Shown here piece by piece: positions 5,232 through 46,823 of a stretch of 52,102 nt of DNA. Source of the DNA: a virus; IMG/VR virus record IMGVR_UViG_3300013233_000325, positions 1 to 52,102 of that record. One strand, 5' to 3'. The notes beneath the pieces are model-generated. The model did not search any database and was not told the DNA's origin. It saw nothing but the letters and a program-made list of their open reading frames with translations. Position 1 is the stretch's first letter; every line of letters starts with the position of its first letter. The position numbers and the translations under genes were made by a program.

Positions 5232-5678
5232 TCAGGGTGTCCAAGGTTTGAAAAATTTAAGTTCGTCCAAAGTAGGATACTTTCCGGTGAAAGTGATAAC
5301 CCTGTCGTCAAGAGCCACTACAGCGGGCGGTTTCACTTTCGGAAAGTACACACTGTTACGGATCACGCGGTCCGCGTTCCACAACATCGACCTGTGGAAG
5401 TTCATGTACCGGCGAATAAGCCAATCACGCATGGCGTCTATCCCGCCCTGTTGGTGGGACCTGGACGAATGAACATGAAGGTCAAAAAACTCGTCTCTGA
5501 TGAGTTCTGTAATCCATTTCATCGCTCCTTCGATGGGGTCGCCTTTGCACACGCTGGCACCTTCCCACCTGTGGTAAGTCATCAACGTGCCGTCAAAGTC
5601 TATGCACAGGATCGGTTTCCCCTTGTACGCGTCAGGCGTCACCCCGTCTACGTTTTCCCATTCGTAACGGTTCATCAT
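5232..5678 (-). CDS. HAD-superfamily phosphatase
   Basis: An ATGATGA overlap with the kinase-MazZ stop sets the start at 5678 (or 5675), giving about 148 aa. HAD motif I is CIDFDGTL (nucleophile and acid Asp), motif II is HVHSSRS, and motif III/IV is KVKPPAVVALDDR. The substrate cannot be read from the sequence. Because it lies inside the purine-modification cluster and no DatZ is present, a nucleotide phosphatase acting on dAMP or another purine nucleotide is a reasonable hypothesis. A polynucleotide 3'-phosphatase is the alternative. Confidence 0.85.
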   Translation of the reverse strand: MMNRYEWENVDGVTPDAYKGKPILCIDFDGTLMTYHRWEGASVCKGDPIEGAMKWITELIRDEFFDLHVHSSRSHQQGGIDAMRDWLIRRYMNFHRSMLWNADRVIRNSVYFPKVKPPAVVALDDRVITFTGKYPTLDELKFFKPWTP

Positions 5679-6730
5679 ACGTCTACCTGCTCGTTGCACA
5701 TGAGACACCGTTGGCATTGTGACCTCAAGTCCCACGCACTTGACCGGTGTTCACATGGTTTCGCTTTGCCAATATGCTCATCATCTTTGCCAACCTTGTT
5801 CCTGGCGGAGTAACCACCGGAACGGGCCCGTGCTTTGTTGATTTCGAGCTTCTTGTAATAAAGCGATGACACGTCATGCGCCGACATACCCAGGGACATG
5901 CACGCCGAGAAGAAGAAATGTAACATGTCTACCATTTCGACCCTGCACGCTCTGAGGTCCGCACCGTCGATCGTCCACCATTTCTCGGGAATCTCGTCTA
6001 TCGCCTCCACACACTCCTTTTTGAGTTGTCGTAGAAAGCGACCGGTCCACTCCACGTAGGGTTGGGTGATAGGGGCAGTGTCTTTACTCGACGCCATGCG
6101 CCTCATTTCTGATAAAGAGGGTTGAATCCCCTGCATTCGAAAAGACTCATCCACAAACTCCAGGTGCGCGTCCATCATCGATTCGAGGTCCGCAGAAGAA
6201 GGACCCCCAAACGTTGATACGGTCTTCGTTTCCAGGTCGGCGATTTTGACGTCCATACCGGATGTGGCCAACGACGCCAGGACATCAACGAAAACCCCGT
6301 CCTCATGTCGTAATCGAGCGTTGATCAACTTTTCGTCATCCGGGTTTTGGGCCCTCTGTGCAATTCGTCGTTTCCGTTCTTCCTCGGAACAGGTGCAGTA
6401 AACGATCTTATGTCGAACGTTCTGGTTTCTGTCTGCGAGTTCTTTAATAAAAGCAACTTGGCTCACCGACCTGGGCATGGAGTCCACCACGAGCGTATCC
6501 CCGTCAGAGAGGTTTTCAAAACACTCCTCGACGAGACCGCGCACGTAATCTTCGGTCATGTCCGGTGTAACTGGGTTTTCGGATTCCGCCATGTCAGACT
6601 CTCCAAACTTCTCGCGGCACGCACGGCCCGTGTGAAGGACTGCGTAATTCACGAACTTTGCGAGCCTTTCGGCTTCGACACTCTTACCGACACACGTTTT
6701 GCCGGTGAGCCAAATCACTTCTCGATTCAT
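5675..6730 (-). CDS. mazZ: NMP kinase-like / MazZ (MazG-dUTPase fold) fusion protein
   Basis: 351 aa, starting at the ATG whose ATGA overlaps the PurZ stop. The N-terminal domain (1-180) is an adenylate/nucleotide kinase-like P-loop protein with GKTCVGKS at about 10-17, a DTLVVDSMPRS segment and an Arg-rich lid (EEERKRRIAQR). The C-terminal domain (about 215-310) has all-alpha NTP-pyrophosphohydrolase motifs: ECVEAIDEIPEKWW and VEMVDMLHFFF, giving ExxE and ExxD metal sites as in MazG/dimeric dUTPase and MazZ. In Z-genome phages MazZ converts dGTP to dGMP for PurZ. A C-terminal Cys-rich tail (CEHR then CQRC, C) may bind zinc. The kinase could phosphorylate dZMP or dGMP; this is inference. Confidence 0.85.
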   Translation of the reverse strand: MNREVIWLTGKTCVGKSVEAERLAKFVNYAVLHTGRACREKFGESDMAESENPVTPDMTEDYVRGLVEECFENLSDGDTLVVDSMPRSVSQVAFIKELADRNQNVRHKIVYCTCSEEERKRRIAQRAQNPDDEKLINARLRHEDGVFVDVLASLATSGMDVKIADLETKTVSTFGGPSSADLESMMDAHLEFVDESFRMQGIQPSLSEMRRMASSKDTAPITQPYVEWTGRFLRQLKKECVEAIDEIPEKWWTIDGADLRACRVEMVDMLHFFFSACMSLGMSAHDVSSLYYKKLEINKARARSGGYSARNKVGKDDEHIGKAKPCEHRSSAWDLRSQCQRCLMCNEQVDV

Positions 6731-7839
6731 GCGATCTCCACCATGTCTTCCATCTTGGGACCGGTACCTAGCAGGGAGACTTTCGGGGGTCGGCCCCACG
6801 CGTCTATGCCACACCCGTGAATTTCTGTAACAAACGACTTGGCACTCGACGACAGAAGGCTCTGAGATCGGACCGCATAATTGCTTTTATGAATGTAGTT
6901 CACAAAATTGACGAAAAGATCCGTGGGGGCGCACACGCGCAGGAACTTTTCGTATTGCATCCACGACCAGGAGAAGATTCGCCGTTGACGCTTGGTCACG
7001 GTGGTGAGTTCAGGGCGCAGGGTCTGACCCATGAGGTCTGACAGTTCATCCCACTCGTATTCCACTTGGTCTCTGTAGTAAGGACCGGAGTCCCCAGTTT
7101 TCACTCCCGCATCGTCGTAGATGTGGCCCACTCGAATCGGGAACGCACGGAGTGATCCCCACACGCGACCGAGACAATGAGGCGGAAGACCCAGGTTGTT
7201 GAGAGCCGATGCCGTAGTGACGTCTCGACTCGTAACGTAAGGGTACGAATGCCCGTGGTTCAGCGACAGGTCGAATCCCTGTGCTGTCTCCGCGAGAACC
7301 GTACCACCGCCACGCAGGGTAGACGCCAGATAGGCCGTCGTGTCCTGGATGAACGGTTTGAGTTCTGGAATGTCCTTAGCAGTCGGGGCTCTGCGCATTA
7401 CTTTACGCACCAGGGCAGCACCAACTCCTTTCTGTGTTGACCCGATGAATCCGGTACCCTTGAGTTCCGATCGCTCCGCGAGAGCATCGTCCTCAGTGAT
7501 GATTCCGGCCATAGGGTGGATTGCCAGTCGATCCGCGACTCCGTACTTATCGAGTTCGTCGATTTCCTGGAGTAGCTTTTCGACCGTGATTCCTGCACTC
7601 GCACCGATTATCACCATGGCATCCAGGTTGACAACCGAACACGGCAGGTGGTGGAGCACGTGGGAAGTGTCATCCTCCAAAACGAACGTGTGACCGGCAT
7701 TGGAGTTGAAATCAGCCGTGACGGCTGCTAACTCTTCCCGGTCACCCAGGTACGCCGCGAGCTTTCCTTTGCCCGTGGAGCCCCATTGTCCGTCAAGAAC
7801 GATGTTGCACTTCCCCTTATCGAGGAAGCGGTTGGTCAT
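6727..7839 (-). CDS. purZ: PurZ-type adenylosuccinate synthetase homologue
   Basis: 370 aa, shorter than bacterial PurA (about 430). The P-loop reads GQWGSTGKGK (residues 17-26), where PurA has WGDEGKGK. The catalytic Asp is therefore Ser21, the substitution reported for PurZ enzymes that join Asp to dGMP, giving N6-succino-2-amino-dAMP on the way to 2-aminoadenine (Z). NAGHT (His50) and GTQKGVGAA are conserved. The product would be processed by host PurB. It is overlapped by ATGA on both sides, downstream of SSB and upstream of the MazZ fusion. A PurA acting on IMP is unlikely because the base Asp is missing. Confidence 0.92.
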   Translation of the reverse strand: MTNRFLDKGKCNIVLDGQWGSTGKGKLAAYLGDREELAAVTADFNSNAGHTFVLEDDTSHVLHHLPCSVVNLDAMVIIGASAGITVEKLLQEIDELDKYGVADRLAIHPMAGIITEDDALAERSELKGTGFIGSTQKGVGAALVRKVMRRAPTAKDIPELKPFIQDTTAYLASTLRGGGTVLAETAQGFDLSLNHGHSYPYVTSRDVTTASALNNLGLPPHCLGRVWGSLRAFPIRVGHIYDDAGVKTGDSGPYYRDQVEYEWDELSDLMGQTLRPELTTVTKRQRRIFSWSWMQYEKFLRVCAPTDLFVNFVNYIHKSNYAVRSQSLLSSSAKSFVTEIHGCGIDAWGRPPKVSLLGTGPKMEDMVEIA

Positions 7840-8936
7840 TTTTTGCCTTTTTTACCCTTCTTGCTGGACTTCTTCTTTGAAGTCTTCTTCTTACTGGACT
7901 TGCCCTTTTTGGCCTTGTTGTAAGCCTCCAGAGCTTTAGGAGTCAGAGTAACGAAGTCGTCGCGGCCCATGGTGTAGGTCTCACCATCGAGTTCCGCCTT
8001 GACATCGTATTCCCCGTCCTCGTACCCGGTGATTTCGCCGTGGGACTTGCCTTCGTCGAGTTCGAACTTGCAGATCGTACCGTTGGGCTCGACGTCCTCC
8101 TCCTCCTCTTCTTCGTCGTCCTCGGGCTCTTCTTCCTCTTCCTCTTCCTCTTCCTCTTCTTCCTCGTCGTCGGACTCCTCTTCCTCCTCTTCCTCCTCTT
8201 CTTCCTCGTCATCCTCGGGGGCGTCGGATTCCTCTTCTTCCTCTTCTTCCTCTTCTGACTCCTCTTTATCGGAATCGTCCTTCTTGTGACCGGCTTCCAA
8301 GTAGTCGGCGTCGAACAGATCTTTCAGGTCCTCGGCCACGTCTTCTTCGAGTTCCGGCGACTTTTTCGCAGTCCGCACAACCATCTTGTACATGTTGGAC
8401 GGTTCCAACTTGCTGTTGCGGGTCACGATGATGTCACACCCTTTGCACCCGAAGATGTCTTCGGACTCGTACTCACCAGACGTGAGGAGTTCGAGGATCT
8501 TCGCAAAGAGGGACTGGGGCATGGTCAGGACTTGCATCCCGCCTTCCAGGTTCTTCATGTCGATCGCGTTGACGTGGAACTGACGCGTGACTTTCATCCG
8601 CTTGCCAGCCGACTGTTCCGACTTCTTGCTGGAACCCATAAGTTCCGACGCCTCAGCACACGTTTTGCACTTCTTGCCTGAGCAAGGACGAGGCGGTTCA
8701 TTCGGAACGAAGTGCTGCAGGGTCTCCCGGTGGATTTCCTCCTGTGTGCTTCCGACCTTCGGTGCGCCAGGAGCGCCCTTGATGTAGAAGCCTTTGCCGT
8801 AGTCGCCTTTGGTGACTTTGTGATTGAACGTGAAAACCCGAATGTCGGTCCTCCCGTCCTTGAGTTTCAGGAACCCGCCACCGCGAGTTTCGATGTTGTC
8901 CTGAGTTGCTTTGTATCGGTCTAAATTGAGAGCCAT
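7836..8936 (-). CDS. gp32-like single-stranded DNA-binding protein with acidic and Lys-rich tails
   Basis: 366 aa. The N-terminal 190 residues resemble T4 gp32-type SSBs: a GGGFLKLKDGRTDIRVF start, an H plus CSGKKCKTC cluster for zinc (about 75-90), and basic/aromatic stretches. A very long Glu/Asp tract (about residues 225-285) follows, then a small SH3/KOW-like unit (GEITGYEDGEYDVKAELDG), then a Lys/Ser tail. Acidic SSB tails recruit replication proteins; the acid-barrel-Lys arrangement here is unusual. The coding strand is an almost pure purine run over the acidic tract. Confidence 0.85.
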   Translation of the reverse strand: MALNLDRYKATQDNIETRGGGFLKLKDGRTDIRVFTFNHKVTKGDYGKGFYIKGAPGAPKVGSTQEEIHRETLQHFVPNEPPRPCSGKKCKTCAEASELMGSSKKSEQSAGKRMKVTRQFHVNAIDMKNLEGGMQVLTMPQSLFAKILELLTSGEYESEDIFGCKGCDIIVTRNSKLEPSNMYKMVVRTAKKSPELEEDVAEDLKDLFDADYLEAGHKKDDSDKEESEEEEEEEEESDAPEDDEEEEEEEEEEESDDEEEEEEEEEEEEEPEDDEEEEEEDVEPNGTICKFELDEGKSHGEITGYEDGEYDVKAELDGETYTMGRDDFVTLTPKALEAYNKAKKGKSSKKKTSKKKSSKKGKKGKK

Positions 8937-8938
8937 GA

Positions 8939-9193
8939 TTACTTACCCTTGCGGGCCTTCTTTTTCCTACTGGGGGTTTTACGCTTCGCGGGGGCTTCGC
9001 CCTTCGCTTCTGCGAGTTGTTTGGACAGTTCCTTTTCGACGAAGTGCACGCAAGCTGCGAGCGCATCCTCGGGATCGGTATCATCCAGAATAGGGAGGGT
9101 AATGCCAACGTCGATTCTTTGAGATTCGAAGTTGCCGAGATTGAGGGTCACTCCCTGAGAGTAACGCACTTCGCCGTTTGTGTTACGCGGCAT
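8939..9193 (-). CDS. Small Lys-rich replication-cluster protein, 84 aa
   Basis: The ATG at 9193 is preferred because it just overlaps the polymerase stop (9185-9183); the frame is open further upstream. The sequence begins MPRNTNGEVRYSQGVTLNLG, has a core ISLPILDD-like strand and helix (EDALAACVHFVEKEL), and ends in a Lys/Arg tail. It lies 2 nt upstream of the SSB gene. Probably a DNA-binding or SSB-partner protein; no family assigned. Confidence 0.75.
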   Translation of the reverse strand: MPRNTNGEVRYSQGVTLNLGNFESQRIDVGITLPILDDTDPEDALAACVHFVEKELSKQLAEAKGEAPAKRKTPSRKKKARKGK

Positions 9194-11561
9194 GTTCAGT
9201 GATTTGGTGCTTGAGGTTCGGCCCGCTAGTGACATCTGCAATCAGCGGGATCGTAAGGAAGGGGAACATTTCGGTCGTCCATTTCGTCATCCAGTAGTGG
9301 AGCAGACTGCTGACGGTCCGGATTTCTTCCGGGGGACAATCGATAATAATAGAGTCATGCACTTGGCCGATGATTACCGCGTCCAGCCCGAGACGGAAAA
9401 TGTCATCTTCGACCATTTGCATAACGATGAGGGTGATGTCGCTGCCGAGACTTTGAATCTCGTGGTTTGTGGCTTGACGTTCGGCCCTCCACCGTTCGTA
9501 GTTGACATCGGATCGGATCCCCGGCAAGTGACGTGGGCGACCAAGCTTGGACACCGCCATTTGGGAATGGTACGCTGCATCCCTTGTGTCTTGAATCCAC
9601 TTATCAACAGCTTTGTGGGTGCCGAAATAGGTATCCAACAGAGCTTGTGCGTAACGGGTGTCCCCAGGTCGGCCCAGTTGGATGGCCAACTTCTTGGGAC
9701 CAATGCCATAGATCACGCCGAATCCCGCCCGTTTCCCTTCCATTCGTTGAGTCTTCGTGACTTTCTCAGGCAGAATGCCATAGATCTTCGCCGCCGTGTT
9801 TGTGTGGGCGTCGATTCCCTTGGAGAACGTTTCGTGTAGGACCGGCTCTCCACTTAGTGAACCAAGGAGTCGAACTTCCAACTGCGAGAAGTCAGCCTGA
9901 ATGATAGCGCCTTTCGGGAAACGACTGGTAAAGACCTCTTTAACCCGTCCTTCCACTGCGATGTTTTGCAGGTTTGGGTCCTGGCTCGACAATCGACCCG
10001 TCACTACAACATCTTGTCGGAATGAGGAGTTGATGCATGAATCGGGGCGCAGCCTTAACCGGTAGTCTTTGAGATCCCGAACAGCGTACTGCAGAGACCT
10101 CAATGCCGTGAGACGACCGGCGATTTTGTGATCGATGGCCCAAATCCGCAGGTATTCGCCTTTCGTGGACGGTCCACCACCTGGGGTTTCACCCAGGACC
10201 GGCAGTTTCAGAACAGTGAACAACAGCACCTGCATCTGTTTGGTACTGTCCACATTGAACAACACGCCCGGTTTCAGTCCACAGATTCTCTTGGCTTTCT
10301 TGACCGCAGGGTAGGATTCGAGTTTGGCCCGTGCTTTGTCCTTCTCCTCGTCCAGTTCCTTTATGAGTTGGTCCGCGTTTGCGCGGTTAATGTACATGCC
10401 GTTGAGTTCGACACGGGCGAGAGTCTTGCATGCACCAAGGGAAATGTTGCGGTAGTTCCACAACATTTGTTCATGGTCGGGGTGCTGCATGGCTTCTTCA
10501 TAAAGACCATCGCGGAGCCTGTATGTAACATCACAGTCACCAGCGCAGTAGGGCCAAATGTCGTCCATAGGCCCATTTGCGTAGGCCTCGGACACGCCCA
10601 TTTCCGCCTTCAATTCCTCCATCTTCGTATCATACCCGCCAATCGTCGTGTACTGGTACGCCAGGGGAGAAAGAGCGTGCGCCTCCTCTTCCCTCAGGTA
10701 GGAGTGGAGTAGGATTGTGTCATCGTCCAGGTTTCGGACGGGCACGCCCCAAATGGCGTGTGCGACCTTGATCTCGAATTTCGCGTTATGACACGTTTTT
10801 CGACAGGGGTGAGATCCCACCCACCTAGCACACTCTATCCACGCCTCGGGACAGGCTTCGAGGTCGATGACAAAAGCCTCCCCCTCACGTACCGCGACAC
10901 CCATGCATCGGATCCGGAAGTCAGGATCACACATGTTGAGGCCGGTAGCTTCGAAGTCGAACGTAGGGCGATCGAAAACGCCAATGCCAGCAAGGCGTCG
11001 CTTCGCCTCTTTGCGATCCGTAACGAGGTCCCAGGTTGTGTCACTGAGGTCGATTTCTTTGTTTGCATAGATCTCACGCACAGAGCGCATCTGAGTGATG
11101 AACTCCCGCATTTTGCCCGGAGTGTGAGCCATCTGGTCTGGGTGGAACACTGGGACGCATTTCCGCTCACCCAGGTCCTCGCGAGTCTTCACCTGCCGAC
11201 CGGCCCATGACGTGATCTTTTTGAGATCGGTCACGGCCTCGAATGCGTGAGACCCCAGAGGCACGACCAGCGACGGGTCCAGCCGTTTGATCTCGGCTGT
11301 AATTCGCTCCCGGTTTGCCGCGATCATCGCCTTTGTGGGCTTGCGACCCCTCACCAAGTAATCATCTACGATCACGAGGTCTACGATTGTCACCTTGTCG
11401 GCAAATCCGTCCTTGTTGAATTCCGAGACTAGAGCCTCACCACCTGAGTCGTGTCGGCAAACCGTGGTCTTTTCTTCATCGCAGAAGTTCGGCCACACGA
11501 CAAGCACAACATTCGACTTGCGGATCTTCCGCTTCCGTTTGATGCCTTTGCGTGCGATCAT
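9183..11561 (-). CDS. dpoZ: Family A DNA polymerase (DpoZ-like) with UDG-like N-terminus
   Basis: 792 aa. Residues 1-165 resemble a uracil-DNA-glycosylase fold (VPLGSHAFEAV, then VPVFHPDQ). A DEDD 3'-5' exonuclease follows: Exo I FDFEATGLN (about 192), Exo II CHNAKFE where the usual Asp is Glu, Exo III YCAGDCD. The palm has motif A ADFSQLEVRLLG (about 553), motif B RMEGKRAGFGVIYG (about 605) and motif C QVHDSIIID (about 732), with Ser replacing the usual Glu. No 5'-nuclease domain is present. With PurZ and MazZ nearby it is the likely DpoZ that incorporates dZTP. Start by ATGA overlap with the nuclease gene. Confidence 0.93.
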   Translation of the reverse strand: MIARKGIKRKRKIRKSNVVLVVWPNFCDEEKTTVCRHDSGGEALVSEFNKDGFADKVTIVDLVIVDDYLVRGRKPTKAMIAANRERITAEIKRLDPSLVVPLGSHAFEAVTDLKKITSWAGRQVKTREDLGERKCVPVFHPDQMAHTPGKMREFITQMRSVREIYANKEIDLSDTTWDLVTDRKEAKRRLAGIGVFDRPTFDFEATGLNMCDPDFRIRCMGVAVREGEAFVIDLEACPEAWIECARWVGSHPCRKTCHNAKFEIKVAHAIWGVPVRNLDDDTILLHSYLREEEAHALSPLAYQYTTIGGYDTKMEELKAEMGVSEAYANGPMDDIWPYCAGDCDVTYRLRDGLYEEAMQHPDHEQMLWNYRNISLGACKTLARVELNGMYINRANADQLIKELDEEKDKARAKLESYPAVKKAKRICGLKPGVLFNVDSTKQMQVLLFTVLKLPVLGETPGGGPSTKGEYLRIWAIDHKIAGRLTALRSLQYAVRDLKDYRLRLRPDSCINSSFRQDVVVTGRLSSQDPNLQNIAVEGRVKEVFTSRFPKGAIIQADFSQLEVRLLGSLSGEPVLHETFSKGIDAHTNTAAKIYGILPEKVTKTQRMEGKRAGFGVIYGIGPKKLAIQLGRPGDTRYAQALLDTYFGTHKAVDKWIQDTRDAAYHSQMAVSKLGRPRHLPGIRSDVNYERWRAERQATNHEIQSLGSDITLIVMQMVEDDIFRLGLDAVIIGQVHDSIIIDCPPEEIRTVSSLLHYWMTKWTTEMFPFLTIPLIADVTSGPNLKHQITEHAA

Positions 11562-16355: not shown

Positions 16356-16595
16356 ATGTTTCGCCCACCCGTCTGGGATTCACACGCGTTCGATACCATA
16401 ATCTCAAGACGTGGAATCACGTTGACTGAGTTGGCTGTACAACTAAAGTCGAGAGTTGGTCATTTGAAAGGGACGAGGTTAGCGTCAGTGACGGCGTGGC
16501 ATCGACAAGGTAGAGAACCGGCGAATTTTGCAATCCTATGTGCAGTCGCCGAGATTCTTAAATGTGATGTCGAACAGTTGTTTCGAAGGTCTTAG
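16356..16595 (+). CDS. Cro/CI-type HTH DNA-binding protein
   Basis: 79 aa. Pattern FDTIISRRGITLTELAVQLK, SVTAWHRQGREPANFAILCAVAEILKC is a classic HTH_3 (Cro/CI) fold. It starts right after the terS stop. In the late operon it may regulate transcription or assist packaging; there is no integrase or partner repressor to support lysogeny. Confidence 0.8.
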   Translation: MFRPPVWDSHAFDTIISRRGITLTELAVQLKSRVGHLKGTRLASVTAWHRQGREPANFAILCAVAEILKCDVEQLFRRS

Positions 16596-16597
16596 TT

Positions 16598-16783
16598 ATG
16601 GCCAAGATTGAGAAAGTTCCGATCGGACCGACTTACTACGGCTATCACATCTGGTGCCCTGCAGAAGACAAACTGCACCTGATCGTACGTGAAGACTCCG
16701 GTGACATGCGAGGAACCGAAGATACTCCTACCTTTTCAAGTCGACTTTCATTCGAAGAAATAGAAGGCAATGGTCGGTGGTGA
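16598..16783 (+). CDS. DUF6527-like protein, part before the in-frame UGA
   Basis: ATG at 16598, 61 codons to a UGA at 16781-16783. The segment YYGYHIWCPAEDKLHLIV and DTPTFSSRLSF resembles the start of DUF6527 proteins (CPxC...H, PTFxPSL). Family members continue with a conserved Cys-His-x-Phe and a G-x-I-x-F-x-x-D-S-x-H-x-x-A-G motif, and exactly this follows the UGA in the same frame. The annotated stop therefore probably truncates a longer protein: UGA recoding or a nonsense mutation. Recognition is from memory of the family. Confidence 0.75.
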   Translation: MAKIEKVPIGPTYYGYHIWCPAEDKLHLIVREDSGDMRGTEDTPTFSSRLSFEEIEGNGRW

Positions 16784-16993
16784 AGATTTACCTTGACGGC
16801 GGGCGTCGTCACTTATAGCCGAGACAGTTACCATAGGAACGCGGGAAAGAGTGCAGGTCTTGTCGACCAGACTTTCCTGAAAACAGACGTCGAGAGGCAG
16901 GACGGTGACGAACCGCTCCAAACGGAGTCCTGGTCTCGCGAAGACGCAATAGCAAGCCGTGACGCACGGAGGAACAGAAATGGACCCGATTAG
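16781..16993 (+). other. In-frame extension after UGA (DUF6527 C-terminal half)
   Basis: Same frame as the 61-codon ORF. After the UGA: RFTLTAGVVTYSRDSYHRNA, then GKSAGLVD. Aligned without gaps to DUF6527 (C-H-x-F-x-x-x-G-x-I-x-F-x-x-D-S-x-H-x-x-A-G), the UGA falls on the conserved Cys, with matching Gly(+7), Asp(+14), His(+17), Ala-Gly(+20,+21) and Leu(+26). The frame ends at TAG 16993, 14 nt inside the next gene, so it fills an otherwise odd 196-nt gap. An independent TTG start at 16793 is possible but would lack the first half of the domain. Confidence 0.7.
16794..16811 (+). promoter_or_regulatory. SECIS-like hairpin after UGA (DUF6527-like gene)
   Basis: TGACGGC (16794-16800) pairs with GTCGTCA (16805-16811), one G-U included, leaving loop GGGC. 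The loop starts 17 nt after the UGA and begins with G, within the limits I recall for bacterial SECIS elements (loop 16-37 nt away, G in the first two loop positions). Seen by eye; a chance hairpin is not excluded. Confidence 0.45.
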
Positions 16994-17249
16994 TTTTTCA
17001 CAAGCAAATGCCACATTCGGCCCCTCTGATGGCAAGACAGAGAAGGAAGTCCGGACGGTGCGGGCTCACCGGTACAAGATGGACGACGGGACACCGTGCA
17101 CCATCCTATGTTACAAGGTAACAGGCAAGGACATCCGGGCGTTGAAGAAAGACGGGACGATATGGCTTCAAGTTATGGGAGAATCTTTCCCTCCTGTGTC
17201 TCTTGACGTTGTGAGCCCGTTCGAGGAAGTCACCCCTTCCAAGACGTAA
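16980..17249 (+). CDS. Hypothetical protein, 89 aa
   Basis: The ATG at 16980 has a strong GGAGGA Shine-Dalgarno 8 nt upstream. Starts MDPISFSQANATFG. Beta-rich with alternating charge (VRTVRAHRYKMDDG, CTILCYKVTGKDIRAL), looks like a small compact domain. It lies in the short-gene block before TerL. Function unknown. Confidence 0.75.
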   Translation: MDPISFSQANATFGPSDGKTEKEVRTVRAHRYKMDDGTPCTILCYKVTGKDIRALKKDGTIWLQVMGESFPPVSLDVVSPFEEVTPSKT

Positions 17250-38113: not shown

Positions 38114-38880
38114 TGTTCCAAAAATTACTTGCACTTCATAATCCAGTTCACACGCAATTCCAATGCGAAGAACTGATCGTGCACAAAGAAGGAGTGTCCC
38201 ATTGGGGCATGCTCCGCCAGTCAATTCGAGAACTTGTCACGCGCGTAACGGTGTGTGCCAACCTTTCATTCGAGTTGAAAGAGATGCAAATCGACATGGA
38301 CGAAGCTAAGTCCAAATCTTCGGACGGCGGAAACCCTAGTATATTTGGCAGACGCCGACACGCTCTTAAGTACGAGAAACTCAAGTTTCAAATTCCTTTC
38401 GTGGAGCACGACCTGGAATGCCGAATCGAGGAATTCCGTCATTTTTACGCGTGCGCCACGGCTTTGTATGGTGTTATTGAAAACATGAAAGTGAACGCAG
38501 AAGGCGGGGCGTTCGGTTTGGACTCAATGCAGGAACTAGAATACCTTCATTGGGCTCAACATTGGGGGTCGCAGATCGCAACACGACGGGCGTCCGGGCA
38601 GGGTGTGTCGGCTGATCTAATGCGCCACCTATTGACCTTGCCTGACCGATACGCTGGAATTGCCAGATCCGCTTTGGAGGGGGACCCCGAAGAGTGGATG
38701 AAGAACAACACCCCAGAACTGCCTAGTCTTGAGAAAGAACAAATCACGGTCGTAGAGGCCAGGAGAATGATCGATGGTTTTAACCCTAAGCGGAGCCTTG
38801 GGCGAAATCTTGGAGGGGCAATCGCTCCGTCAAGCAACTCTTTGGAAGATCGTGGTAGCCGACGCGGGTCTCACGCTTAG
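38113..38880 (+). CDS. Hypothetical tail-tip protein, 255 aa
   Basis: Starts at the ATG overlapping the kelch stop. Helical and charged (CANLSFELKEMQIDMDEAKS, FVEHDLECRIEEFRHFYACA), with a basic disordered end. Overlaps the hub gene by 107 nt, an unusually long same-strand overlap. It may be a chaperone or adaptor for the kelch or hub protein. Confidence 0.7.
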   Translation: MFQKLLALHNPVHTQFQCEELIVHKEGVSHWGMLRQSIRELVTRVTVCANLSFELKEMQIDMDEAKSKSSDGGNPSIFGRRRHALKYEKLKFQIPFVEHDLECRIEEFRHFYACATALYGVIENMKVNAEGGAFGLDSMQELEYLHWAQHWGSQIATRRASGQGVSADLMRHLLTLPDRYAGIARSALEGDPEEWMKNNTPELPSLEKEQITVVEARRMIDGFNPKRSLGRNLGGAIAPSSNSLEDRGSRRGSHA

Positions 38881-39595
38881 GTACACCGACCACGATCGAC
38901 CGATCCAGTTTGATGAAAGTGACGATGCATCCGGATCTGTCCAAGAGTACACTCCTTTTTACGGGTGGGATGTTTCTGCTCGCCAGCTTCAATCTGGTTT
39001 GGCAGAAGCCAACCTCGACACGTTTGGCATCATTAGTTCGGCACAGGTTACCCATAGTGACCTGCGAGCCGGAAGGTACGATAACGGAGCAGTCACCGAA
39101 TTTCTCGTGGACTGGCGAGTTCCTCACCGAGGAGCGGTCCGAAAGCGTACGTATTCAATCGGTGGCATTCGTTTCACAGGTGAATTCTGGATTGCCGAAC
39201 TCAATGGGCTCCCTAATCGTCTGCAGAATAGAATCGGCGCAATCTTCACGAGGAATTGTGGGTACACCCTGGGTGTTGATCGATGCCCGGTGATTATCGG
39301 TTCATTTGATGTGGAAGAAGTTCGGGTTGTGGCGGCAAGTCAGGACGCAACTGAACCGAAGAGGAAATTCCAAGCTACAATAGGGGATTTGCCCACCCAG
39401 GTTGATGATTACTACAAGTACGGTACTATCACCTGGACCACAGGTCTCAATTCTGTCATCGCGCACGTGTCAACGTGCAAAGTGTACAGCGACACGGCCC
39501 GAGACATTGAGCTTTACGAGAACACTCCGTTCGACATTGGTGATAATGACAAATTCACCATCGTGGCTGGGTGTGATAAACTCTTTTCCACCTGA
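38774..39595 (+). CDS. Tail hub protein, DUF2163/BR0599 family, up to in-frame UGA
   Basis: 273 codons to UGA at 39593. N-terminus MVLTLSGALGEILEGQSLRQ; then the family's RNCGYTLGVDRCPVIIG (two Cys) and AGCDKLFST. In lambda gpL and relatives four Cys bind a 4Fe-4S cluster; here three are encoded and the fourth position (GCDKxFxTC-R-x-KF) is UGA. The frame continues with the conserved C-terminus. The hub sits under the tail tip; GTA homologue is orfg13. Confidence 0.85.
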   Translation: MVLTLSGALGEILEGQSLRQATLWKIVVADAGLTLRYTDHDRPIQFDESDDASGSVQEYTPFYGWDVSARQLQSGLAEANLDTFGIISSAQVTHSDLRAGRYDNGAVTEFLVDWRVPHRGAVRKRTYSIGGIRFTGEFWIAELNGLPNRLQNRIGAIFTRNCGYTLGVDRCPVIIGSFDVEEVRVVAASQDATEPKRKFQATIGDLPTQVDDYYKYGTITWTTGLNSVIAHVSTCKVYSDTARDIELYENTPFDIGDNDKFTIVAGCDKLFST

Positions 39596-39685
39596 CGAGA
39601 CACTTTCAACGTAGCAGTTAGCTACGGCGGAAATCACCTGATGCCCGGAACCGATCGTGTCCTCAAGACGCCCGGAACTCGATAA
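39593..39685 (+). other. In-frame extension after UGA (hub C-terminus)
   Basis: In the hub's frame the UGA is followed by RDTFNVAVSYGGNHLMPGTD and then RVLKTPGTR to TAA at 39685. Family members read TCRxKFxNxxNFxGxPHxPGxD, so the match is nearly complete and the UGA replaces the conserved Cys. The extension overlaps the NlpC/P60 gene start by 29 nt and removes an odd 61-nt gap. Recoded UGA (Sec) or a recent nonsense mutation are the choices. Confidence 0.75.
39610..39626 (+). promoter_or_regulatory. SECIS-like hairpin after UGA (hub gene)
   Basis: CGTAGC (39610-39615), loop AGTTA, GCTACG (39621-39626): a perfect 6-bp stem. The loop starts 20 nt after the UGA and has G as its second base, within the bacterial SECIS limits as I recall them. 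Chance occurrence is possible; covariation would be needed. Confidence 0.45.
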
Positions 39686-45906: not shown

Positions 45907-46133
45907 TTGATCATCTCCTTGAGTTCTTTGATCTCTTGATCTAGTTGACCGATCTTGCGGTTCTGGGCTCGGTTGATTTTCTGCTGTTGTTCAGATATAT
46001 CGACAGAATTTGCGTTGATGGCTATTTGGTCACGGTTGAACTGGAAGACGTGGCCCATGTCTGACAGTAAGTGTAGCACCACATACGCAAACCATATAAT
46101 CAGAGCGAAAACAGCTATTACGATCCAGTTCAT
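45888..46133 (-). CDS. Membrane protein with coiled coil, 81 aa
   Basis: N-terminal membrane span (MNWIVIAVFALIIWFAYVVL), then a heptad-like coiled coil (QQQKINRAQNRKIGQLDQEI). Looks like an envelope-anchored adaptor or lysis accessory. ATG overlaps the stop of the 42-aa zinc protein. Confidence 0.75.
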   Translation of the reverse strand: MNWIVIAVFALIIWFAYVVLHLLSDMGHVFQFNRDQIAINANSVDISEQQQKINRAQNRKIGQLDQEIKELKEMIKCRPSD

Positions 46134-46258
46134 TTTGGTTTAGGGGTAGGAGGGTAGGGGACTTCCCCGGAGCCGTAACACTCATTACATGACCACCCGT
46201 CTTCGGGGTAAGGTGTTGGGGAGAAGACCCCAGTTCCGTCACATTCAGGACATTTCAT
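46130..46258 (-). CDS. DnaJ-like CxxCxGxG zinc mini-protein, 42 aa
   Basis: Overlapped by ATGA at both ends. Two copies of a DnaJ-type motif, CPECDGTG and CNECYGSG, then a Pro-rich tail (PYPPTPKPK). It is a stand-alone zinc finger of the kind used in DnaJ and small phage proteins. Confidence 0.7.
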   Translation of the reverse strand: MKCPECDGTGVFSPTPYPEDGWSCNECYGSGEVPYPPTPKPK

Positions 46259-46428
46259 TTCTTTGTTACCCTTGCAATGAGGAAGAGGCACGCGGGACAC
46301 GTGACCTCAGTGATTTTCTTGGTGGTGTGGTGGAGCGGGTTCTTCTTGCGTTGACACCGTGCCCCTCCAGGACCAAGACCCTTGTACGGACTTTGGTAGA
46401 AGATGTGAACTTTCTTCTTCTTAATCAT
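46255..46428 (-). CDS. Small basic Cys protein, 57 aa
   Basis: ATG at 46428 (MIKKKKVHIFYQSPYKGL) overlapping the GNAT gene stop by ATGA. Cys in GGARCQ and a CPAC pair, possible zinc site; basic ends. Unknown. Confidence 0.6.
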   Translation of the reverse strand: MIKKKKVHIFYQSPYKGLGPGGARCQRKKNPLHHTTKKITEVTCPACLFLIARVTKK

Positions 46429-46823
46429 TCGACGAAGATAAAATCGTGAGTGATGTTGTTTGCAGCTAGAAACCCCACATGTTCCCAAAAGGGCTCGGCA
46501 CTCTTCTTTACTAGAGTCGCCCGGATTTCACCGTTGAGCCCATTGGCTCGTGCCCAGGTGATGAGGTCACTGACTGCTTTGGTTGCGTGCCCTTGTCGTC
46601 GGACGTGGGGCTCGACACCAATAACCGTGATCACAACATCGGCCCCTGTTTGGTAGTCTTTCAACTCGATACGCAGGACCATCGTGCCGTCGCCTACAAG
46701 ACGTTTCATGTAAAGTGACACGCATCCTTTATTCTCGGGAATGAGCATTACCTCGAATCCGTACTTTGGAAGACTCTTCGCTTGTTGTATCAAGCTCTTG
46801 CGTTCCTGGTCTGTGAGCATCAT
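46425..46823 (-). CDS. GNAT-family N-acetyltransferase
   Basis: 132 aa. Acetyl-CoA-binding motif VEPHVRRQGHATKAVSDLIT (R/Q-x-x-G-x-A) and later beta strands (EPFWEHVGF) are typical. The target is unknown; in phages GNATs can acetylate host proteins or modify nucleic acid/nucleotides. Confidence 0.88.
   Translation of the reverse strand: MMLTDQERKSLIQQAKSLPKYGFEVMLIPENKGCVSLYMKRLVGDGTMVLRIELKDYQTGADVVITVIGVEPHVRRQGHATKAVSDLITWARANGLNGEIRATLVKKSAEPFWEHVGFLAANNITHDFIFVE

Follow-up and report, generated by a model that had tools for sequence, protein, structure and literature searches.

Among the closest described parallels to the genes considered here is the bacterial selenoprotein gene. The likeness lies in a UGA that occupies the position of Cys in homologues, in homology on both sides of that codon, and in a stem-loop 16–37 nt downstream with a G early in its loop. 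The differences are that the genes here belong to a phage and to two families for which we found no report of a selenoprotein, that their decoding is predicted, that one of the two sites appears to be a structural iron-sulfur ligand, and that no second UGA-bearing homologue accompanies them. A different route is offered by the selC*-type tRNACys with an opal anticodon, which, together with selB* and cysS*, has been described in Desulfobacterales (PMC7609411); such a tRNACys(UCA), acting with SelB* and CysRS*, would likewise place Cys at UGA in chosen contexts. Finally, Basilisk-like Bacillus phages have been reported to encode tRNA-Sec (PMC6145125), which is a reported link between phages and Sec decoding. 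Those phages carry the tRNA gene, whereas the DNA studied here has no tRNA gene but does have candidate Sec codons.

The window, by which we mean the whole 52,102-base stretch of an IMG/VR virus record that was analyzed, comes from a siphophage and carries genes for the terminase, portal, head, and tail. Its minus strand (5675–11561) also encodes a PurZ-like adenylosuccinate synthetase, whose best NCBIfam match (NF038379, 217.6 bits) lies under the cut-off of 300, a kinase plus dUTPase/MazG-like fusion, and a family A DNA polymerase with weak similarity to DpoZ; judging from these genes, the phage may use 2-aminoadenine (base Z). In addition, residues 72–164 of this polymerase (gene at 9183–11561), close to the N terminus, bear a weak resemblance to uracil-DNA glycosylase.

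Two genes of the window, one a divergent member of DUF6527 and the other a baseplate hub, are each interrupted by a UGA at the codon for a conserved Cys (Table 1). For the DUF6527 gene, reading of the sequence confirmed the positions first proposed for the ATG (16598), the UGA (16781), the 69 further open codons, and the TAG (16991), and the extension after the UGA does span the gap up to the next gene, with the 14-nt overlap. In a codon-usage scan trained without this gene, UGA 16781 had the strongest coding signal on its two sides of any TGA in the window that has open frame both before and after it. The original prediction had called this UGA the second of its kind; the first was very probably UGA 39593 in the hub gene.

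Table 1. Features of the two UGA-interrupted genes and their surroundings.
Feature	Coordinates	Strand	Remarks
Shine-Dalgarno-like GAAGG	16585..16589	+	8 nt upstream of ATG 16598; read from sequence
N-terminal half of divergent DUF6527 gene, 61 codons	16598..16780	+	C20, H27, PTF motif
In-frame UGA at DUF6527 invariant Cys	16781..16783	+	
C-terminal half, 69 codons plus TAG 16991–16993	16784..16993	+	G, D-S-x-H, A-G motif
SECIS-like hairpin 1, 7 bp, loop GGGC, 17 nt past UGA 16781	16794..16811	+	Weak support
Next gene, ATG 16980 preceded by GGAGG	16980..17249	+	14-nt overlap with read-through extension
Baseplate hub protein, PF09931 and most of BR0599, 273 codons before UGA	38774..39592	+	
UGA at one of four invariant hub Cys, presumed fourth iron-sulfur ligand	39593..39595	+	
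SECIS-like hairpin 2, loop AGUUA, inner stem 39610–39626, 20 nt past UGA 39593	39604..39632	+	
Hub C-terminal extension, 29 codons plus TAA, completes PF09356	39596..39685	+	

The family assignment of the first gene required profiles more sensitive than that of Pfam. A Pfam DUF6527 match for the joined translation, which the original prediction had named as its check, was not obtained: PF20137 gave no match even at E 10, and the joined protein does not reach the Pfam cut-off of 23.6 bits. A weak match to phrog_3362 (E 0.052) covers residues 19–91 and thus spans the UGA, and this group can be equated with DUF6527 because gp23 of phage 9NA matches both PF20137 (1e-14) and phrog_3362 (4e-42). Against a custom DUF6527 profile of about 85 relatives, gathered from phages and IMG/VR, the joined protein scored 18.6 bits with Cys at the UGA and 14.3 bits with X, and full shuffles of it reached at most 5.3 bits. 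In a control where only the part after the UGA was shuffled and the Cys was kept, scores did not exceed 15.0 bits in 2000 trials, two of which passed 14.3. Since the joined protein outscores these shuffles, there is a real DUF6527 signal in the downstream half, and the gap-free family match proposed across UGA 16781 holds. So does the placement of that UGA on a conserved Cys, the column being Cys in 45 of 45 aligned homologues.

The resemblance to DUF6527 (PF20137, phrog_3362) consists of C20, H27, the PTF motif, the UGA/Cys column, and the downstream G, D-x-x-H, and A-G. Of the residues that do not vary among the 45 relatives (CxxC...H, W, PS, CH, G, I, D..H), about half are kept. The window protein retains C20, H27, P44, G69, D76, and H79. 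Unlike the family, it has no C23 (CPGC motif), no Trp, no Pro-Ser, and no His following the Cys; its I is also changed, it carries a C-terminal tail of about 40 residues, and it is not detected by Pfam. From these comparisons, we take the joined protein to be a very divergent DUF6527 relative, seen by sensitive profiles and missed by Pfam. The missing residues fit relaxed constraint, which counts against recoding. The conserved Cys and His residues suggest that DUF6527 is a small metal-binding protein. Sequence searches found no relative of the family in the PDB and no match in PADLOC; a relative for which the predicted model was good (pLDDT 89) likewise had no convincing PDB match, and the predicted model of the window protein itself was mediocre (pLDDT 72). 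In the examined DNA of phages related by major capsid protein (43–62% identity), no DUF6527 gene was found. Two Dickeya Limestonevirus loci (L028, 968–1207; L020, from 601) have a DUF6527 gene that consists of the N-terminal half followed by unrelated sequence; because such shortened genes exist, loss of the C terminus alone is tolerated somewhere.

The hub gene emerged from a search in which TGA-terminated genes were joined to their extensions and then matched to families. With its 29 further codons, the gene at 38774–39595 aligns with phrog_778, a tail assembly family, almost to the end of that family. PF09356 matches over 59 of its 80 positions (35.6 bits) when the gene stops at UGA 39593, and over all 80 (61.5 bits; cut-off, 22.9) when this UGA is read through. 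It also matches the baseplate hub family TIGR02218 at 150.4 bits (cut-off, 80.5). Its relatives in the PDB are the hubs of RcGTA (6tba) and roseophage R4C (8gtc), and it shares with the gene transfer agent and siphophage hubs (TIGR02218, BR0599) the whole domain order and all four Cys positions, differing in that one of the four codons is UGA. In nine aligned hubs, the invariant Cys residues are 162, 171, 267, and 274; the window hub has the first three, and position 274 is UGA 39593. Across related loci, Cys stands at that position in 11 of the 11 compared. In the two solved hubs, four conserved Cys residues bind an iron-sulfur cluster that is reported to be indispensable for assembling the tail (PMC7296036, PMC10276861), and from the alignment we infer that the four invariant positions here are the same ligands. 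The hub is an essential part of the virion, so termination at UGA 39593 should be lethal. Among the 21 window genes with homologues, no stop but this UGA falls within a region of homology; we read the other stop crossings in that comparison as gene junctions or wrong frames.

Elsewhere in the window, UGA behaves as a stop. It is the commonest stop of this phage, with half of the large genes (14 of 28) ending in TGA, and the capsid gene terminates where those of its relatives do, which rules out a general reassignment. Because UGA is an ordinary stop elsewhere, context must direct its decoding at the sites considered here. Other UGAs were examined as candidates and rejected: UGA 5234, between a small gene and the DnaB helicase, is an ordinary junction; UGA 27645 and UGA 25570 are both gene ends; and UGA 46257 has no family support. 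The last lies on the minus strand (46032–46428), where a 57-codon gene with the motif TCPAC is followed by the UGA and then by 74 open codons up to the next gene; neither a family match nor a SECIS-like hairpin was found for it. A phage GNAT acetyltransferase gene is at 46425–46823 on the same strand.

If context is supplied by RNA structure, the two sites are unequal. The published bacterial SECIS model calls for a spacing of 16–37 nt, a stem of 4–16 bp, a loop of 3–9 nt with G in one of its first two positions, and an MFE of -7.5 or lower. Hairpin 1 fits this model (-8.5), but it is weak evidence because the model also accepts about 8% of coding stretches in this phage, 18% of synonymous recodings fold as stably, and its z-score of -0.3 is no better than chance. 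Hairpin 2 fits at -11.3 with its outer stem, the inner stem alone (-7.2) just missing the threshold; its z-score is -2.84, none of 200 shuffles was equally stable, and 7% of synonymous recodings were. Hairpin 2 is thus the better evidence of the two.

Searches for the same patterns in other genomes were negative. In viral contigs, the UGA–DUF6527 pattern returned only a decayed remnant, and in 84,980 genomes only chance-like matches; the UGA–hub pattern was not found in viral contigs. These patterns require several conserved residues, so divergent forms may escape them, and the collections searched may omit records very close to the window. The remnant, GDCEHALAGKTV, is a C-terminal DUF6527 segment that lacks the N-terminal half (L006 near 8501; L007 near 6595). 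None of 52 BR0599 matches, from 47 of 289 genomes of the alphaproteobacterial class, has an interior stop. Within the 52,102-nt window, we found no tRNA gene, tRNA-Sec, or Rfam element, and no SelA, SelB, SelD, or other recoding machinery. The hosts of its hub and capsid relatives are mainly Alphaproteobacteria and Vibrio. In the part of the literature covered, DUF6527 was not named in any paper, and no selenoprotein gene of a phage was found.

Recoding of some kind at both UGAs, to Sec or Cys, is the reading best supported by the sequence comparisons, and it is probably correct. As originally proposed for the DUF6527 gene, recoding draws strength from the family match and the UGA-on-Cys placement, but loses some through the Pfam result, the several missing invariant residues, and the want of a UGA-bearing relative. 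The principal competitor is chance: nonsense mutations, population polymorphisms, or assembly errors would have fallen on the two Cys codons by coincidence, with a DUF6527 gene in decay and, in this contig, a truncated or defective hub. The failure to find UGA homologues in the viral contigs and genomes searched agrees with this account, as do the missing residues of the DUF6527 copy and the shortened genes of the Dickeya phages, and scanning many windows selects for such coincidences. We nevertheless consider it unlikely. About 51 single-base routes lead to a stop in the DUF6527 gene and about 104 in the hub gene, of which one each is the Cys in question, giving roughly 1 in 51 × 1 in 104 for two nonsense mutations both on these codons, a rough estimate that ignores mutation bias and the selection of the finding for the coincidence. 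Moreover, no further interior stop occurs in the 21 genes with homologues, the hub is essential, and both coding signal and homology persist in the downstream halves. With a second UGA-on-Cys gene in the same phage, recoding is much likelier than a chance nonsense mutation, although decoding itself is predicted.

Accidental read-through is another way to reach the downstream halves. UGA is a leaky stop, and its reading by a near-cognate tRNA (for example, that for Trp) would produce each protein in two lengths, of which the shorter would look stable for both genes. This would leave the coincidence of both UGAs with conserved Cys unexplained, and Trp could not act as an iron-sulfur ligand in the hub, and thus the idea seems very doubtful. 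Among mechanisms that direct a specific residue, selenocysteine inserted through host SelB machinery seems likeliest, with about an even chance of being right; here, we infer the translation, the residue, and the host machinery alike. In this standard-code siphophage, UGA 16781 and UGA 39593 would be translated in place of conserved Cys with no termination. The stem-loop just downstream of each would recruit host SelB with Sec-tRNA(Sec), the host presumably supplying the Sec machinery, and selenocysteine insertion would yield full-length DUF6527 and hub proteins. At each site, however, the Cys looks like a metal ligand and not like a redox residue, which counts against Sec. The main mechanistic rival is Cys insertion, in which a host selC*-type tRNACys (UCA anticodon), SelB*, and CysRS* would read both UGAs and keep the ordinary Cys ligands. 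The hairpin and UGA evidence fits this too, Cys at iron-sulfur and presumed metal-binding positions requires no special chemistry, and the components have been described (PMC7609411). But the system is rare, and the relatives by hub and capsid suggest Alphaproteobacteria and Vibrio, not Desulfobacterales, as hosts, making Cys insertion rather improbable here.

The selenocysteine reading carries a more specific picture, to which we would give slightly less than an even chance: a tailed phage with at least two selenoproteins made by means of SECIS-like elements, whose hub iron-sulfur cluster has a selenolate ligand and whose particle assembly depends on the host Sec machinery. If recoding is true, ordinary phage gene calling cuts such genes short, and two more protein families would be added to those with a recoded UGA. 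Sec, or a UGA-encoded Cys, would stand at a structural iron-sulfur ligand. A phage structural protein would then require the host to redefine a stop codon, which would link virion assembly to selenium metabolism or to a rare tRNA that inserts Cys.
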